This document shows, piece after piece, positions 13,637-43,397 of a stretch of DNA of 64,000 bases. Each line of letters starts with the position of its first letter. The stretch's first letter is position 1. The DNA is from Marinoscillum sp. 108 (GTDB lineage Bacteria > Bacteroidota > Bacteroidia > Cytophagales > Cyclobacteriaceae): NCBI RefSeq assembly GCF_902506655.1, contig NZ_LR734808.1, positions 3,532,501 to 3,596,500 on the forward strand, read 5' to 3'. The notes under the pieces are model-generated. The model made no database searches. It had not been told where the DNA came from and saw only the letters and a program-made list of their open reading frames with translations. Both the position numbers and the translations under genes were made by a program.

Positions 13637-14476
13637 ATGGCTTGGTTTAAAAGACAAGACAAAGGAATCAACACTCCTACGGAGAAAAAGAAAGAGGCCC
13701 CAGACGGACTCTGGTATAAAACCCCAAGTGGCAACATCATTCACATGCGCGAGCTCAAAAACAATGCTTACGTATGTCCTGATGATGATTATCATGTAAG
13801 GATTGGCTCCAAAGAGTACTTCGAAATTTTGTTTGATGACAATCAATTCACAGAGCTGGACGCTGAGCTCACCTCTGGTGATCCGCTCAAATTTATAGAT
13901 ACCAAAAAGTATCCTGAGCGTATCGCGGCAACGCAAAAAAAGACGGAGCTGAAAGATGCCGTAAGGACGGCCTATGGCAAAATGAACGGTCGTGAAATCA
14001 CCATTTGTTGTATGGATTTTGCCTTTATTGGTGGGTCTATGGGATCAGTGGTAGGTGAGAAAATCGCAAGAGGGATCAATCATTCTTTAAAAAAGAAAGT
14101 CCCTTTTCTGATGATTTCCAAATCTGGGGGTGCCAGAATGATGGAAGCGGGATTTTCGCTCATGCAGATGGCTAAGACTTCTGCAAGACTGGCATTGCTT
14201 TCGGAGGCCAAGATACCTTATATCTCACTGCTTACCGACCCCACCACTGGCGGGGTGACGGCATCATATGCCATGCTGGGGGATTTCAACATCGCTGAAC
14301 CTGGTGCACTGATTGGCTTTGCCGGCCCGCGTGTGATCCGGGAGACCATTGGCAAGGATTTGCCGAAAGGTTTCCAAAGCGCTGAATTTGTAAAAGATCA
14401 TGGCTTTTTGGACTTCATTGTGGATCGGCGGCAGCTCAAAAGCAAGCTGACCTCCCTGCTAAAAATAATCTATTGA
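13637..14476 (+). CDS. accD: acetyl-CoA carboxylase carboxyltransferase subunit beta, zinc-ribbon cysteines lost
   Basis: Beta subunit of the carboxyltransferase that makes malonyl-CoA for fatty-acid synthesis. 279 residues, near normal. The crotonase-fold body is clear: [39 protein letters not shown] and [20 protein letters not shown]. The N-terminal segment aligns with the family's four-cysteine zinc ribbon, but only Cys47 remains; the first pair is replaced by TPSG (29-32) and the last Cys by Asp50. I recall the same change in other Bacteroidota AccD proteins, so it is probably a lineage trait rather than damage. accA is not in the window. A TTGACCA/TGGTCAA inverted repeat spans the stop, without a T-run. 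Confidence 0.94.
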
Positions 14477-18480: not shown

Positions 18481-18514
18481 GTGTTGAACATGTGCCGGGT
18501 GTATTGATTTTATT

Positions 18515-18856
18515 GGATCAAGCAATATTTGTGTGGGTATCACTTCAGAGTTTATATTTTGCAAAACTGAAAAAAATCCACTGTAGATCCAGAAAAGTAA
18601 GGGCACAAAGGCGGGTGGGGCATCCAAGGCAAGTGTGAATCATTTTGACTCCAGAAAATTTTTAAAAAAAGCCAAAAACGATGAGTCGAAATGATTTTTT
18701 GCGTTGGTGCCTTTTCTTTTGCTTCGTTTTTCTTTGGGCAAGCAAAGAAAATGAAGGGTAAGTAGCCGATCAGTTGGATTGAGTCATATGAGGTGCCAGA
18801 TTACGGATCACTATCCATCTTTAATACAATCACCCCACAGATTTTCGGGTTGATCC
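18515..18856. mobile_element. MITE-like repeat, copy A (complete, with target duplication)
   Basis: A 342-base non-coding element with imperfect terminal inverted repeats of about 24 bases: left GGATCAAGCAATATTTGTGT, right ending in GGTTGATCC after CCCCACAGATTT. It is bracketed by an 8-base direct repeat ATTTTATT (18507-18514 and 18857-18864), as left by a transposase. Inside are two inverted repeats: AATCATTTTGACTC (18638-18651) with GAGTCGAAATGATT (18683-18696), and a T/C-rich stem 18723-18736 with 18743-18755. Related copies lie at 42663-42874 and 42880-43219. No transposase is in the window; the element would move in trans. Confidence 0.75.
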
Positions 18857-38148: not shown

Positions 38149-38359
38149 GTGGTGTTTTCATGCCATGAACCTGTATGTCTTTTAACGGTAAAGAGTTAGA
38201 TTTATGGAACCCAACCATAATCTGATTGACACATTCAAACTTTGCATATCTCGAGGAAGAGTTTAATCAATAGATTTTTTAGGAGATGGTATTCAACGAG
38301 CTCAATAGCGTAGTGCATCACATCCACCAGCTGAGTAGGGTGATCAAAAAAAGAAGCAA
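38149..38359. other. intergenic region between the PUL terminator and the nuclease gene
   Basis: About 210 bases. Base composition falls here. TTGACACATTCAAACTTTGC (38225-38244) carries a TTGACA and a CTTTG but no exact TAnnTTTG box. A short open frame from ATG 38286 overlaps the nuclease start and is not accepted as a gene. Confidence 0.4.
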
Positions 38360-40144
38360 ATGGCAAAACGTGAGTTATCCATATTACAAAAAATGTACAA
38401 GGAATTTTTTCTTGCCTTGCTTGCTGAATATGAGCTGGACTCACCCGCAAAACTGAGTCATTTTCAGAAGAGAGAATTCTTTACAAGGATAAAAGAAGGT
38501 TGGAAAGTAAAAACGGCAGCATTAGCTAAAGCAAAAGTAAGGACAACGCCTCTTTCAAAGAAATTCCAGTACGCAAAGGTTAAAGTTTCAGAGTCTTTAA
38601 TAGCACTAGAGCCAAAGGCAGCATACGGACAAACTCTCCCAAGTAAAACTGAGGAGGTTACTGTAAAAATCCTTTCTGAAGAAAATCCCGAACAAACAGA
38701 TGATTTAAAAATTAAGTATCATCCCAACCAGTTTTTTGAGCAAGATGATTTGATGTATACCTATCCGGTAGTGAAAATGCCTAGAGAGGAGTCATATTTA
38801 AAGCTTCCAAGAAAACGTCGTGCAATGGGTAAAGGATATAAAGAGGCCGATTTTTATAAAGCCATAATTGCCAATATACCTGAAGTGGAAGTTGATGTTG
38901 ATTTGCACATGGCTATCCCACACTATAGCAGGCCCTATGAGCCAGACATTGTTTTAATAGATCGGGAACTTAACTTATACATAGATATAGAAATAGATGA
39001 ACCTTATGATGGCTATTATCGATTTCCAACTCATGAATTTATCAGGGACGAAAAAGATGTGATTGTTAAAAAAGATAATATCAGGGATTTGTTTTTCACA
39101 GAAAGTGGATGGGTGGTTATTCGATTTACTGAGTATCAAGTACATCTCCAAGAGAAGCAATGTATTGCCTATATTAAGGATGTACTGAATTCAATCTATA
39201 CGTATCGACTGGATGAATCTTCCAATTGCACTTTGGAACCTCAATGGGACTACCAGCAAGCTGTTCGGTGGGAGAAATCACATTATAGAGAGAAATATTT
39301 AGGTATTGAAAAATTTGGTAAGCAAAAAGCAACCTCAGAGATCATTGTTGATTTTAACGAAAATGAGAGCATTGAAAGAAGTCTGAATAGAACGAAAAGG
39401 TCTAAATCGGAAGCCTTGCAAGGTAATGTTGCCTTTGAGGATGAAACGCATACATATCATCATCCAAAGGATGAAACTGGAAACGCAGAGTATATATCAG
39501 TTACCACCTTAATTGATCGATTCTTTCCATTTGATATTGACCGATTCATTCAGGGGAAAGTCAAAAAGGAAGGACTTAGCGAAGAGGAGGTATTGGAAGA
39601 ATTTCTTAGAAATAGAGATGAGGCTGCAGAAAAGGGCACCTATCTCCACGAGCAAATAGAGAGATTCTTAAAGGGAGAGTCATATGATGAGTGTACTAAA
39701 GAATTTGCCCACTTTAGAAGATTCTATAATCATGTAATTGTTGACAAGGGGTTTCAATTTGTTGAGGCTGAAAAAAAAGTACTACTGGAAGAATACAATG
39801 TTGCTGGTACTGTAGATGCTTTGTTCAAGAAACCGGATTCGAACGATTATGTCATTATTGACTGGAAACGAAGTAAAAAGTTAGTAATTGATGGTTACCC
39901 CAGAAAGTTTGGTTATGGTTATGCTTTGTCGGAATTGGGTAACCTAGATAATTCAAGCTATAACAAATACTCTCTGCAGCAGAATATTTATAAATACATT
40001 TTGGAGAAGAAGTATGGGTTTCCCATCTCGTCTATGAATTTGATCGTGCTTCACGAAAAATATGACGATTATTATAGAATCAATCTAGCTGAGATGGGAA
40101 AAGAGGTTAGGATCATCTTGGACTCAATCAACCACAAAATATAG
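38360..40144 (+). CDS. protein with two PD-(D/E)XK-like nuclease regions (VSR/DUF559-like and RecB/Cas4-like)
   Basis: 594 residues, not a protein I can name. An N-terminal charged region (1-140) precedes a first nuclease-like core (about 160-275): YEPDIVLID (Asp196), YIDIEIDEPYDG (Glu211, Asp213), DNIRDLFF, GWVVIRF. This order resembles VSR/DUF559 endonucleases. A second core (about 355-575) has the RecB/Cas4-type order: ISVTTLIDRFFP, GTYLHE (His430), GTVDAL (Asp486), IIDWKRSK (Asp501, Lys503) and LQQNIYKY (Gln540, Tyr544). All catalytic positions of the second core are intact. The helicase gene starts 2 bases after its stop, so both are made together, probably as a DNA-processing complex. 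The gene is much richer in A/T than the neighbouring PUL, which points to horizontal transfer. Confidence 0.82.
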   Translation: MAKRELSILQKMYKEFFLALLAEYELDSPAKLSHFQKREFFTRIKEGWKVKTAALAKAKVRTTPLSKKFQYAKVKVSESLIALEPKAAYGQTLPSKTEEVTVKILSEENPEQTDDLKIKYHPNQFFEQDDLMYTYPVVKMPREESYLKLPRKRRAMGKGYKEADFYKAIIANIPEVEVDVDLHMAIPHYSRPYEPDIVLIDRELNLYIDIEIDEPYDGYYRFPTHEFIRDEKDVIVKKDNIRDLFFTESGWVVIRFTEYQVHLQEKQCIAYIKDVLNSIYTYRLDESSNCTLEPQWDYQQAVRWEKSHYREKYLGIEKFGKQKATSEIIVDFNENESIERSLNRTKRSKSEALQGNVAFEDETHTYHHPKDETGNAEYISVTTLIDRFFPFDIDRFIQGKVKKEGLSEEEVLEEFLRNRDEAAEKGTYLHEQIERFLKGESYDECTKEFAHFRRFYNHVIVDKGFQFVEAEKKVLLEEYNVAGTVDALFKKPDSNDYVIIDWKRSKKLVIDGYPRKFGYGYALSELGNLDNSSYNKYSLQQNIYKYILEKKYGFPISSMNLIVLHEKYDDYYRINLAEMGKEVRIILDSINHKI

Positions 40145-40146
40145 AT

Positions 40147-41982
40147 ATGTCCGTATTAGATGATTTTAAGCAGGCAATAGTCATTCAACAACAAAAGGAT
40201 GATGAGGCCTATGAAGAGCAAATAGCCTTACCTCTTGACGAACGTGTTGCCAAGGGTGTGACGATGACCAATCTCAAGGTCATATTTGATTTTTACGAGG
40301 AAGCGCCTAACCAATGGTGTCCACATTTGAATTACCCATATAAGTTCCTTCGCTCAGCTGAAATTTTTAGTGATAATAATATCTCAAAGTTCCGGGAAGG
40401 CGCACAGGTGGTGTTGAGCAATGGTAGTCATGAGTTTAAAATGGATATACTGGAAGATACACTTGAAAGATTTGTTTTGGCTCCAAATGACTATGATGTG
40501 AAAGCATGTTATTTAGACTCAAAAAGTTATAACCAAAATAATTGGGAGATCAATGTGGTAAAAACCGATCTCACCTTAAAACTACTTTCAGCCACAGCGG
40601 GTAATCTGGAGTCTGATAGTGCTCGACTTAATAAAATTGAGCGTCTTTTTTCTGGAGCATTGACTAATCCGATCAACTCAGATAAATGCTATAATGGCTT
40701 AAATGACTCACAAAACACAGCTGTCACCAAGGCGGTTTTGTCTCCTAATTTCCATTTGATTCAGGGGCCTCCCGGAACGGGAAAAACAGAAACCATAGCG
40801 CACATTGCGGCGCTGTACTTACGTTCTGGCAAAAAAGTATTTGTTACTGCCCCTACCCACACAGCCATCAACAATTGTTTGAATGCCATTGCTAATAGGG
40901 TAAAAGAAGATAGCAAGGTGGTAAAGATTGGAGAGAAGTATCAAGCGGCAGAGATACTAACTAACCCGCATATTAAAAGAAAGACAAGGTTGTCCTTAGA
41001 AAGTTTTGAGTCTGTTAATGAGATGAGCAAGGAGGGAATTGTCATAGGAGGCACTCCATATTCTCTATGCTACCCAGCATCCAAGCGTCTAAATAATTGG
41101 GAATTTGATGTGGCACTAATAGACGAAGCGGCACAAATGAGCATTCCTCTCGCCGTTTCGGTTATGTCAAAAACCAACAAGTTTGTCTTTGTTGGTGATC
41201 ATGAACAGCTTGATCCTATTATGCCCTCAGGAACTGGAGTGTCCATGTTTTCAGAATCGGTCTTTCGGAGGTTGGTTAGGCTTTATCCAAACGATAAAAC
41301 GCTTTTGAATATTTCGTACAGATTGAATGACAAACTTATTCGCATACCTAATAAGCTTTTTTATAGTGATCAGTTAACTTCAGGAGTTTCGCCGAATATT
41401 GAAAATAGTCAAATACCAAGCAATCATTATTCAGAAGTATTGAATAATGAAGACCCAAAAGTCTTGTATTTGCACAAGGTGTTTGATTCTCAAGGGAGAT
41501 CCCCACACGAAGCAAGTATTGTTGCTGGTATTCTCAAAGATCTAGTAGAACACGGTGCTGAGTTAAGGGATATAGGTATTATAACACCTTACAGAGCTCA
41601 GGTGCGTGAAATCAAAAAAGCACTAAATCGGGTTGTAAAAGGAATTGACACAGAACGAACTGAATCACTTTTTATCGATACCGTTGATCGCATGCAGGGG
41701 CAAGAGAGGGATTATATCCTCTATAGTATGTCAAACTCGCATCCACTGGAATCGAAAAGAAGATTGGATTTTTTTTATAGCCCTAATCGATTGAATGTGG
41801 CTATTACAAGAGGTAAGAAGAAGTGTATTGTTATTGCTAATTATAAAGTTTTTGACATCATCGATGATGAGTTATCGGATTTGCCAGAATATGATAATTT
41901 GAAGCCAAGTCTCAACATATTCAAGGAGTATTTCAGGCTTTCAACGAAAATTGAAGAAGAGGTGGAAGAGGATAGTTGGTAG
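40147..41982 (+). CDS. superfamily 1 helicase, UPF1/Dna2-like
   Basis: 611 residues. Helicase motifs in order: Q-like GLNDSQNTAV (184-193), Walker A GPPGTGKT (207-214), Ia VTAPTHTA (233-240), Walker B DEAAQ (326-330), III GDHEQLDP (350-357), IV PYRAQVREIKKAL (481-493), V TVDRMQGQERD (512-522) and VI LNVAITRGKKK (549-559). This pattern belongs to the SF1B UPF1/Dna2 group that moves 5' to 3' on DNA or RNA. The N-terminal 180 residues could be a beta-barrel (1B-like) domain. It follows the two-core nuclease by 2 bases, which recalls the nuclease-helicase logic of Dna2 or of Gabija, though the families differ. The insert stops about 80 bases later. Confidence 0.88.
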   Translation: MSVLDDFKQAIVIQQQKDDEAYEEQIALPLDERVAKGVTMTNLKVIFDFYEEAPNQWCPHLNYPYKFLRSAEIFSDNNISKFREGAQVVLSNGSHEFKMDILEDTLERFVLAPNDYDVKACYLDSKSYNQNNWEINVVKTDLTLKLLSATAGNLESDSARLNKIERLFSGALTNPINSDKCYNGLNDSQNTAVTKAVLSPNFHLIQGPPGTGKTETIAHIAALYLRSGKKVFVTAPTHTAINNCLNAIANRVKEDSKVVKIGEKYQAAEILTNPHIKRKTRLSLESFESVNEMSKEGIVIGGTPYSLCYPASKRLNNWEFDVALIDEAAQMSIPLAVSVMSKTNKFVFVGDHEQLDPIMPSGTGVSMFSESVFRRLVRLYPNDKTLLNISYRLNDKLIRIPNKLFYSDQLTSGVSPNIENSQIPSNHYSEVLNNEDPKVLYLHKVFDSQGRSPHEASIVAGILKDLVEHGAELRDIGIITPYRAQVREIKKALNRVVKGIDTERTESLFIDTVDRMQGQERDYILYSMSNSHPLESKRRLDFFYSPNRLNVAITRGKKKCIVIANYKVFDIIDDELSDLPEYDNLKPSLNIFKEYFRLSTKIEEEVEEDSW

Positions 41983-42092: not shown

Positions 42093-42106
42093 AAATGCTA
42101 CCTTTA
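42075..42106 (+). promoter_or_regulatory. promoter of the winged-helix regulator gene
   Basis: TTCG (42075-42078), 20 bases, then TACCTTTA (42099-42106). Each box is one base from the Bacteroidota TTTG / TAnnTTTG consensus, at the right spacing. If used, transcription starts near 42113 and the ATG at 42128 becomes the start. Confidence 0.45.
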
Positions 42107-42127
42107 CTTGAAAGGAAACTCTATCAA

Positions 42128-42640
42128 ATGAAAAAGCACAGCGGTATGCGGCCGCAGGACATTGTCATCCTGCTCAAAATTGCCATCAAAGGGGAGCAGT
42201 CCTGGAACATGAAAGCGCTTTCTCAAGAATTGGAGATTAGCGCCAGTGAAGTCAGTGAGAGCCTCAACCGCTCGTCTTTTGCGGGACTACTGTTTCAGGA
42301 TAAGAAGCAGCTCATGCGCCAAGCCCTAATGGATTTTTTGCAATACGGTCTTCGGTACGTGTATCCACAGCAACCCGGTGCATTGGTGAGAGGCATGCCT
42401 ACCGCACATAGTGCACCACCTCTGGACAATGAGATTATGAGCGACGCACCTTATGTTTGGCCCTATTACGATGGAACAGTAAGAGGTCAGGCCGTAGAGC
42501 CTCTTTATCCAAGTGTGCCGGCTGCCTGCCTCAAAGATCCGGTTTTTTATGAAGTAATGGCCCTGTGTGATGCGCTCAGAGTAGGCAGAGCTCGCGAGCG
42601 AAACTTTGCGGTAGAAGAACTCAAAAAGCGGATATGCTAA
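42128..42640 (+). CDS. winged-helix/MarR-like DNA-binding protein of unknown family
   Basis: 170 residues from ATG 42128; an ATG at 42095 in the same frame is the alternative but would lie upstream of the predicted transcript start. The N-terminus reads as a helix-turn-helix: MRPQDIVILLKIAIK ... WNMKALSQELEISASEVSESLNRSSFAGLL, with ISASEVSESLNRS as recognition helix. The middle has FLQYGLRYVYPQQPGALVRG and a conserved-looking TAHSAPPL segment. I have met this family as uncharacterised regulators but cannot name it. The base composition is like the host, unlike the helicase gene before it. Confidence 0.7.
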   Translation: MKKHSGMRPQDIVILLKIAIKGEQSWNMKALSQELEISASEVSESLNRSSFAGLLFQDKKQLMRQALMDFLQYGLRYVYPQQPGALVRGMPTAHSAPPLDNEIMSDAPYVWPYYDGTVRGQAVEPLYPSVPAACLKDPVFYEVMALCDALRVGRARERNFAVEELKKRIC

Positions 42641-42662
42641 AGAACGCGAAAAGTGCAAACGA

Positions 42663-42874
42663 GATGAGTCAAAATGATTTTTTGCATGCGACTGGCTAGG
42701 TTGGTGCCATTTTGTGGGATCACCAATTGTTTTCTTTGCCTACGCGGCCCGGGGCAAGCAAAGAAAATGAAGGGTAAGTAGCCAGGCTATCTGATTGAGG
42801 CAAACTAAGTTATCAGTTCACTACCTCACCATCAACTTTTAATGCAATCTTCCCACAACTTTACTCCTTGATCC
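42663..42874. mobile_element. MITE-like repeat, copy B (left end missing)
   Basis: It begins at the inner GAGATGAGTCAAAATGATTT arm and runs to the right terminal repeat CCCACAACTTTACTCCTTGA (ending GATCC at 42874). The left terminal repeat and first inner arm are absent, and the middle is altered (TTTTCTTTGCC ... GGCAAGCAAAGAAAA with a longer loop). It abuts copy C in the same direction, so two insertions or a partial duplication have met here. Confidence 0.65.
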
Positions 42875-42879
42875 TTGAT

Positions 42880-43219
42880 GCATCAAGCAATAAAATTGTG
42901 GGGCATCACTATATAGTTATATTTTGTAAAGACGAATTAATTCACTGCGGATTCAGAAATGGAGGGACGCAAAGGAGGGCGGGGCATCCAAGGCAAGCGT
43001 GAATCATTTTGACTCTAACAATTCCTAAAAAAGCCTAAACACCATGAGTCAAAATGATTTTTTGCGTTGGTGCCTTTTCTTTTGCTTCGTTTTCTTTAGG
43101 CAAGCAAAGAAAATGAAGGGTAAGTGGCCAATCAACTAGATTGAGGTATATAAGGTATCAGATCACAACTTCTCCATCCATCCTTAATGCAATCTCCCCA
43201 CAGAAATTCTGCTTGACCC
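42880..43219. mobile_element. MITE-like repeat, copy C (complete)
   Basis: 340 bases. Left terminal repeat GCATCAAGCAATAAAATTGT followed by GGGG; right CCCCACAGAAATTCTGCTTG then ACCC. Inner inverted repeat AATCATTTTGACTC (43002-43015) and GAGTCAAAATGATT (43046-43059) is perfect. Second stem TTCGTTTTCTTT (43086-43097) with AAAGAAAATGAA (43106-43117) has one G-U pair. No target duplication is seen, perhaps because copy B or the tRNA remnant replaced a flank. No coding capacity. Confidence 0.72.
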
Positions 43220-43239
43220 TTAGTGACCTCCGCAGGATT
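43219..43239 (-). pseudogene. 3' fragment of a tRNA-Arg copy
   Basis: 21 bases beginning CTTAGTGACC are identical to 43393-43413, the 3' acceptor strand and half of the T-stem of the intact tRNA plus its 3' flank. It begins at the last base of MITE copy C. A leftover of a tandem tRNA or of a tRNA-targeted insertion. Confidence 0.6.
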
Positions 43240-43353
43240 ACTTTCCGAGATCCTGTAATCGTTCCGAATTCCGATAGCAAAACCATTGAATCTGCGATTC
43301 AAGTGGATTTTGTATTTCAAAGGCTCCCTTGAATAAATTCAAATCGCCTCTGA
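43240..43353. other. non-coding spacer between the tRNA 3' remnant and the tRNA terminator
   Basis: Contains two small perfect inverted repeats, TTGAATC-tgc-GATTCAA (43286-43302) and TTGAAT-aa-ATTCAA (about 43329-43342). I see no gene and no second tRNA fold. Confidence 0.4.
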
Positions 43354-43387
43354 AACACAAAAACCTGTCGCATGCGCGACAGGTTTT
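43354..43387 (-). terminator. intrinsic terminator of the tRNA-Arg gene
   Basis: AAAACCTGTCGC (43360-43371) and GCGACAGGTTTT (43376-43387) form a perfect 12-base-pair stem. On the minus strand it is followed by TTTTTGTGTTTC, 10 bases past the tRNA 3' end. Confidence 0.85.
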
Positions 43388-43397
43388 GCTCTCTTAG

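Follow-up and report, generated by a model that had tools for sequence, protein, structure and literature searches.

A paired dual-nuclease protein and UPF1/Dna2-type helicase in Marinoscillum sp. 108 as a candidate phage-defence system

In a 64,000-nucleotide stretch of the Marinoscillum sp. 108 genome (contig NZ_LR734808.1; hereafter the window), we find two adjacent genes that encode a protein with two nuclease domains and a superfamily 1 (SF1) helicase of the UPF1/Dna2 type. Because these genes stay paired in close relatives, often within clusters of anti-virus genes, their most likely role is defence against phages, as a system that has no name yet. We consider it reasonably probable that the two genes move horizontally as an anti-phage cassette whose products unwind and break down foreign DNA. 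The genomic context of the relatives gives good support to a role in defence, and the folds and active sites point to DNA unwinding, nicking and single-strand degradation as the most likely chemistry. The two open reading frames (ORFs) and their parts lie in the window as follows:

38360..40144, + strand: dual-nuclease protein of 594 amino acids, defined by its ORF, a 47-protein family alignment and an AlphaFold2 model
38372..38530, + strand: N-terminal helical module (residues 5-57), phage-family-like (phrog_28651, E 1.2e-6) and replaced in some relatives
38828..39202, + strand: DUF559/Vsr-like nuclease domain (residues 157-281), assigned by its fold match to 3hrl and conserved residues
39422..40141, + strand: RecB/Cas4/MGME1-like nuclease domain (residues 355-594), assigned by its fold match to MGME1 and conserved residues
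40147..41982, + strand: UPF1/Dna2-type SF1 helicase of 611 amino acids, assigned by AAA_11/AAA_12, SF1 motifs, model and fold matches
40765..40788, + strand: Walker A motif GPPGTGKT of the helicase (residues 207-214), invariant in 26 sequences
41122..41136, + strand: Walker B/motif II, DEAAQ (residues 326-330), with D326, E327, A328 and Q330 invariant in the 26 sequences

Both ORFs lie where an earlier reading of this DNA (the original prediction) had placed them, on the same strand with a gap of 2 bp, and the pair is A/T-rich as described there (GC 36-40% vs ~49% in the flanks). Since both ORFs have relatives that match along the full length at 65-73% identity and the proportion of non-synonymous differences (pN) is 0.16-0.20 for the pair, the genes are real beyond chance; with synonymous sites saturated, they are under strong purifying selection.

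Relatives were collected by an alignment scan, which yielded 79 loci in GTDB genomes and 1 locus in the viral scan; single-sequence scans of genome contigs and viral contigs returned no relatives. The nuclease-then-helicase pair is present in 26 loci including the window, 22 of the main clade and 4 of a Hymenobacter type, and across them the helicase starts about -1 to 20 bp from the nuclease stop. The nuclease of L037 is interrupted by an apparent transposase gene. The hosts of the 25 other pair loci are mostly Bacteroidota, with a Chlorobiota metagenome-assembled genome (MAG), a Pseudomonadota MAG and a phage-like contig. In the nuclease tree the 21 main-clade rows form one clade with 100/100 support and all are paired; always separate homologues, which would have spoken against the original prediction, are not seen in this clade. 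The Hymenobacter pairs make up a second nuclease clade, and four unpaired rows lie between it and the main clade; pairing was therefore either gained once and then lost, or gained twice. Within the main clade, the distances among nucleases follow those among helicases (Mantel r 0.91; 0/2000 permutations as high), and the two genes are co-inherited. Further, the pair helicases split from the housekeeping-type and MkoA helicases with 100/100 support in a helicase tree whose outgroup placement is unsure because of long branches.

The remaining nuclease relatives (~26-41% identity) occur without the helicase, and several look membrane-anchored. A stand-alone dual-nuclease gene of ~479 amino acids, apparently with no membrane segment, was seen in L070, L075, L076 and L079; in the last three, all Flavobacteriales, it occupies the same chromosomal place, between apparent genes for pyruvate kinase and riboflavin synthase, and it may have a cellular role. 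Separately, L175 (9316-18336) carries a distant pair-type helicase (35%) and no nuclease, adjoining hsdR, hsdM, hsdS and a DarT gene.

The neighbourhoods of the paired genes point to defence. Four loci among the closest relatives (L024, L025, L026 and L042) carry the pair within a type I restriction operon, in the gap that separates hsdS from hsdR, with hsdM, hsdS and HsdR confirmed by Pfam in L025 and the same genes recognised by sequence in the other three. The same operons hold TmtA/Tiamat (L024 and L042; 5.8e-258, 8e-239), a PsyrT/DpdF-like helicase (L025 and L026), HEC-05 (L025; 4e-49) and PDC-S19 (L024). In L028 a DRT UG19 reverse transcriptase (8.5e-116) is followed by RTas1465 and then directly by the pair, and in L029 the pair again lies directly downstream of this DRT accessory gene; a functional link with RTas1465/DRT UG19 is possible in both. 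MkoA/Mokosh (2.8e-134) adjoins the pair in L039, and PsyrT with a retron-type reverse transcriptase does so in L030, with a PsyrT match of 1.3e-258 among the pair neighbours. Other neighbours are DruH-like (L027), PDC-M48B (L031), PDC-S26 (L057) and a C5 methylase (L054). Thus a neighbourhood survey of the kind proposed with the original prediction finds the pair conserved and, in 12 of the 26 loci, a defence gene that is either known or a candidate, a non-exhaustive count over the stretch examined. As a rough yardstick, HSDR_N gave ~110 matches in 80 genomes, so that chance alone would place one in about 1% of 20-kb stretches.

Several observations weigh against a DNA-directed defence system. 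The four intact restriction-modification loci are close kin in one subclade and are therefore not independent events; the neighbour survey was selective, without matched control genes; and around several loci (e.g. L036, L038) no defence gene is obvious. RNA could also be the target, since the UPF1/IGHMBP2 clade includes RNA helicases.

The type I setting has precedents. TgvAB is a two-gene working defence system embedded in a type I operon (PMC11411939), and DarTG2 occupies the hsdS-hsdR gap of one (PMC12255303); like the pair in its relatives, both are accessory defence cargo inside hsd operons, although their protein families (GmrSD-like and ADP-ribosyltransferase, respectively) are unrelated to those described here. 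That the pair uses the same site in four loci would suit a PrrC-like back-up guard, silenced by the Hsd complex and set off by a phage that blocks restriction, perhaps with the death of the cell. However, hsd genes are missing from the surroundings of most pair loci, the present-day window among them, and the pair must therefore be able to work without hsd, which leaves the guard an unlikely explanation.

Structure-based searches, likewise proposed with the original prediction, returned RecB/MGME1-like and Dna2/UPF1-like folds and also brought to light a second nuclease domain. The alignment of 47 nuclease relatives was the basis of both the AlphaFold2 model (predicted local distance difference test, pLDDT, 87.8) and the residue counts given here. 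The closest fold of the C-terminal part is human MGME1 (Z 17.0; Foldseek 1.2e-7), with further matches to the nuclease domains of AddAB/AdnAB, RecE, Cas4 and Dna2 (Z 10). Residues 157-281 match instead 3hrl (VIA Z 9.6, root-mean-square deviation 1.8 over 93/94 residues), a putative endonuclease-like protein, and the catalytic domain of the I-Bth0305I homing endonuclease (Z 7.3). From these distinct fold matches we recognise two nuclease domains in one protein. The RecB/Cas4-type motifs GTYLHE, GTVDAL, IIDWKRSK and QNIYKY had been read correctly from the sequence, as had the numbering of D501 and K503; H430, D486, D501, Q540 and Y544 are conserved in 47/47 proteins and K503 in 46/47, so that fold together with the H, D, DxK and QxxxY residues places this domain in the RecB/MGME1-type PD-(D/E)XK group. 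The other domain has E211, D213, H225, R242 and D243 in 47/47, D196 in 46/47 and E162 in 42/47, and its fold plus the acidic residues D196, E211 and D213 and H225 make it DUF559/Vsr-like.

Profile searches gave less. Pfam DUF559 falls just under its cut-off at residues 236-276 (19.7 vs 20.6), while the phage exonuclease family phrog_298 matches residues 352-571 at 2e-27. A single-sequence search found no solved structure for the nuclease; a profile search for structures gave weak MGME1 and 3hrl matches alone, both later borne out by fold. Library matches to Cas4 were below threshold, and CRISPR Cas4 itself was set aside (TIGR00372, 18.2 bits vs a cut-off of 65), no conserved cysteine (iron-sulfur) cluster being found in residues 340-594 of the 47 proteins. 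The plasmid matches listed cover about one third of the nuclease, around the Vsr-like part, and come mostly from cyanobacteria; this part is found alone on many cyanobacterial plasmids (matches H1-H20).

The N-terminus of the nuclease is exchanged among relatives. Its ~60 residues resembling phrog_28651 are common to most main-clade members, and in their place L040 has an HU domain (PF00216, 2.4e-16) and L041 a vWA domain (6.4e-16) with an apparent membrane segment; in the Hymenobacter nucleases the N-terminus probably spans the membrane and has a proline-rich linker. Searches with the N-terminal 60 residues in phages and with the nuclease among phage records found no match. The original prediction had overlooked the second nuclease domain and the exchangeable N-terminus, as well as the relatives' setting in type I restriction operons; with that setting, defence is no longer a guess but has evidence behind it.

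The helicase is complete, as had been claimed. AAA_11 and AAA_12 are present, the SF1 motifs (among them GPPGTGKT and DEA.Q) are invariant across 26 helicase sequences, and the model (pLDDT 84.4) has the fold of Dna2, IGHMBP2 and UPF1, in keeping with the Dna2-like logic proposed earlier. Motifs and domain order place it among the UPF1/Dna2 SF1 helicases; for the IGHMBP2 family (TIGR00376) it scores 218.5 bits, under the cut-off of 348.9.

Taken together, these parts suggest a pair that would work in the manner of Dna2, its functions divided between two genes and a nickase added. The SF1 helicase would open or translocate on DNA, with a 5'-to-3' polarity predicted from the UPF1/Dna2 clade; the Vsr/DUF559-like endonuclease probably nicks duplex DNA, and the MGME1/RecB-like exonuclease probably degrades the exposed single strand. 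Phage DNA would thereby be destroyed at ends, nicks or replication forks, and where a type I system lies at the same locus, the DNA ends left by its HsdR may be among the targets. As the N-terminal module is the exchanged part, it is probably the targeting or sensing component. In all of this we infer the substrates, the trigger, the order of steps, a physical complex and protection from phage.

In an RNA-directed defence the same helicase could act on the RNA of phages, with the nuclease domains cutting RNA as well; this is what has been predicted for CoCoNuT, in which the UPF1-like helicase CnuH is linked to nucleases in the genome (PMC11090510). RNA complexes of UPF1 and IGHMBP2 are indeed among its best fold matches. 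However, the top Foldseek match is Dna2 and both nuclease folds come from DNA nuclease families (MGME1, RecB, Vsr-like), so an RNA target seems rather unlikely to us. CoCoNuT types II and III have McrB GTPases and coiled-coil McrC proteins at their core, and the pair in the window adjoins neither.

The defence function proposed in the original prediction thus gains support from the relatives' context; its companion suggestion of plasmid or phage processing fares worse. Under that alternative the pair would be a recombination or replication module of phages or mobile elements, captured by genomes and not defensive. The phrog_298 and phrog_28651 matches agree with this, as does L103 (9375-13567), where the pair lies on a phage-like contig just downstream of a YqaJ recombinase gene. 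Yet scans of IMG/VR found the pair on a single viral contig only, and 50,697 phage records gave no match; given also the repeated siting beside defence genes, we regard capture as quite improbable. Housekeeping DNA repair by a bacterial Dna2 is very improbable, for all the Dna2-like logic and fold: the helicase occurs (E<=1e-40) in just 4/395 genomes of the phylum (3 of the 4 with the nuclease, the fourth being L175), the five same-genus genomes examined gave matches to a housekeeping-type helicase only, and the pair is an AT-rich insert.

The pair is, as the original prediction held, an unnamed module: the pairing is conserved, no family in PADLOC, NCBIfam or Pfam names it, and no named family matches above its cut-off. 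The literature searched, to which subscription papers and bioRxiv did not belong, holds no description of it. HEC models are absent from the PADLOC matches listed for the pair, though HEC-05, a PADLOC candidate family for embedded systems, matches a neighbour. Eukaryotic Dna2 likewise combines a RecB-type nuclease with a UPF1-clade SF1 helicase, but the pair is two genes, its nuclease is nearer MGME1 and has no conserved cysteine cluster, and it differs further in its extra Vsr-like domain and accessory distribution. Mokosh also uses a UPF1-like helicase in defence, and in PADLOC our helicase scores best against MkoA (2.9e-55); Mokosh was rejected since the best stretch spans only MkoA positions 785-1080 of 1112, the rest being missing from the 611-residue protein, and since the partner is DUF559/Vsr-like and RecB/MGME1-like with no match to the Mokosh phospholipase D (PLD) nuclease. 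Hhe (DUF4011-helicase-Vsr) joins a UPF1-like helicase and a Vsr-type nuclease. Our helicase matches it at 1.2e-14, but Hhe is a single giant protein with DUF4011 and no RecB/MGME1 domain, and membership fails at 57.7 bits vs an NCBIfam cut-off of 2000. Gabija is also a two-gene nuclease and helicase system; unlike the pair, it consists of an OLD/TOPRIM nuclease (GajA) and a UvrD helicase (GajB). The distinction drawn earlier between these families stands, as the nuclease has no PADLOC GajA match and no OLD/TOPRIM Pfam match, and GajB matches are 1.4e-5 and weaker in a helicase dominated by UPF1-type AAA_11/AAA_12.

Two further features flank the pair in the window:

38286..38342, + strand: relic of an hsdR start, 19 codons (MVFNELNSVVHHIHQLSRV), local score 56 against the HsdR N-termini of L024/L025/L026/L042
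42095..42640, + strand: helix-turn-helix-like gene matching the PADLOC candidate PDC-M21A (1e-49), 112 bp downstream of the pair

The pair was said to stand alone, which is true of its degraded local setting and not of these immediate neighbours. The relic ends 17 bp before the nuclease gene, and its MVFNELNSVVHHIHQLSRV aligns with the HsdR start MSFTELNSVEHYIIHQLSGV of L024. Its score of 56 tops all 1483 random window fragments (best 37), and its degenerate DNA pattern has a single match across the 5.2-Mb genome, at 38286-38342. A slightly longer version of the pattern was found in 0/296 genomes; the shorter one, among 175 loci, occurs only in the window copy and the L024/L025/L026/L042 operons. 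The HSDR_N search found no intact hsdR in the window's genome, and around the pair no convincing match to hsdM or hsdS remnants or more of hsdR was found. Beside 20 other pair loci, we found only one more relic, in L024: a second partial hsdR start of ~50 bp (13664-13713), right after the helicase and before a 119-amino-acid ORF and the real hsdR. This second copy suggests that cargo, on inserting at the start of hsdR, duplicates that start; the copies may be footprints of cargo exchange there. The gene at 42095-42640 has no homologue among the pair loci and is probably separate cargo; we recognised no partner gene for it. Beyond it lies the tRNA/MITE region noted previously, a repeat-rich stretch (42641-43396) resembling a miniature inverted-repeat transposable element (MITE), beside tRNA-Arg and with 31 matches across the genome, another copy being at about 18514-18856.

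The fullest version of our proposal is tentative. It would be a new defence system of two nuclease domains and a Dna2-like helicase, with a swapped N-terminal sensor (phage-derived helical, HU, or vWA with a membrane anchor), whose cassette lands at the hsdR start and leaves duplicated hsdR-start footprints. The combination of Vsr-like, MGME1-like and UPF1/Dna2 helicase parts is absent from the libraries searched. If the proposal is right, an unnamed nuclease-helicase immune system would extend across the Bacteroidota and beyond, the duplicated hsdR start would offer a footprint by which to follow the gain and loss of defence genes in type I restriction operons, and Dna2-type end processing would be linked to restriction.

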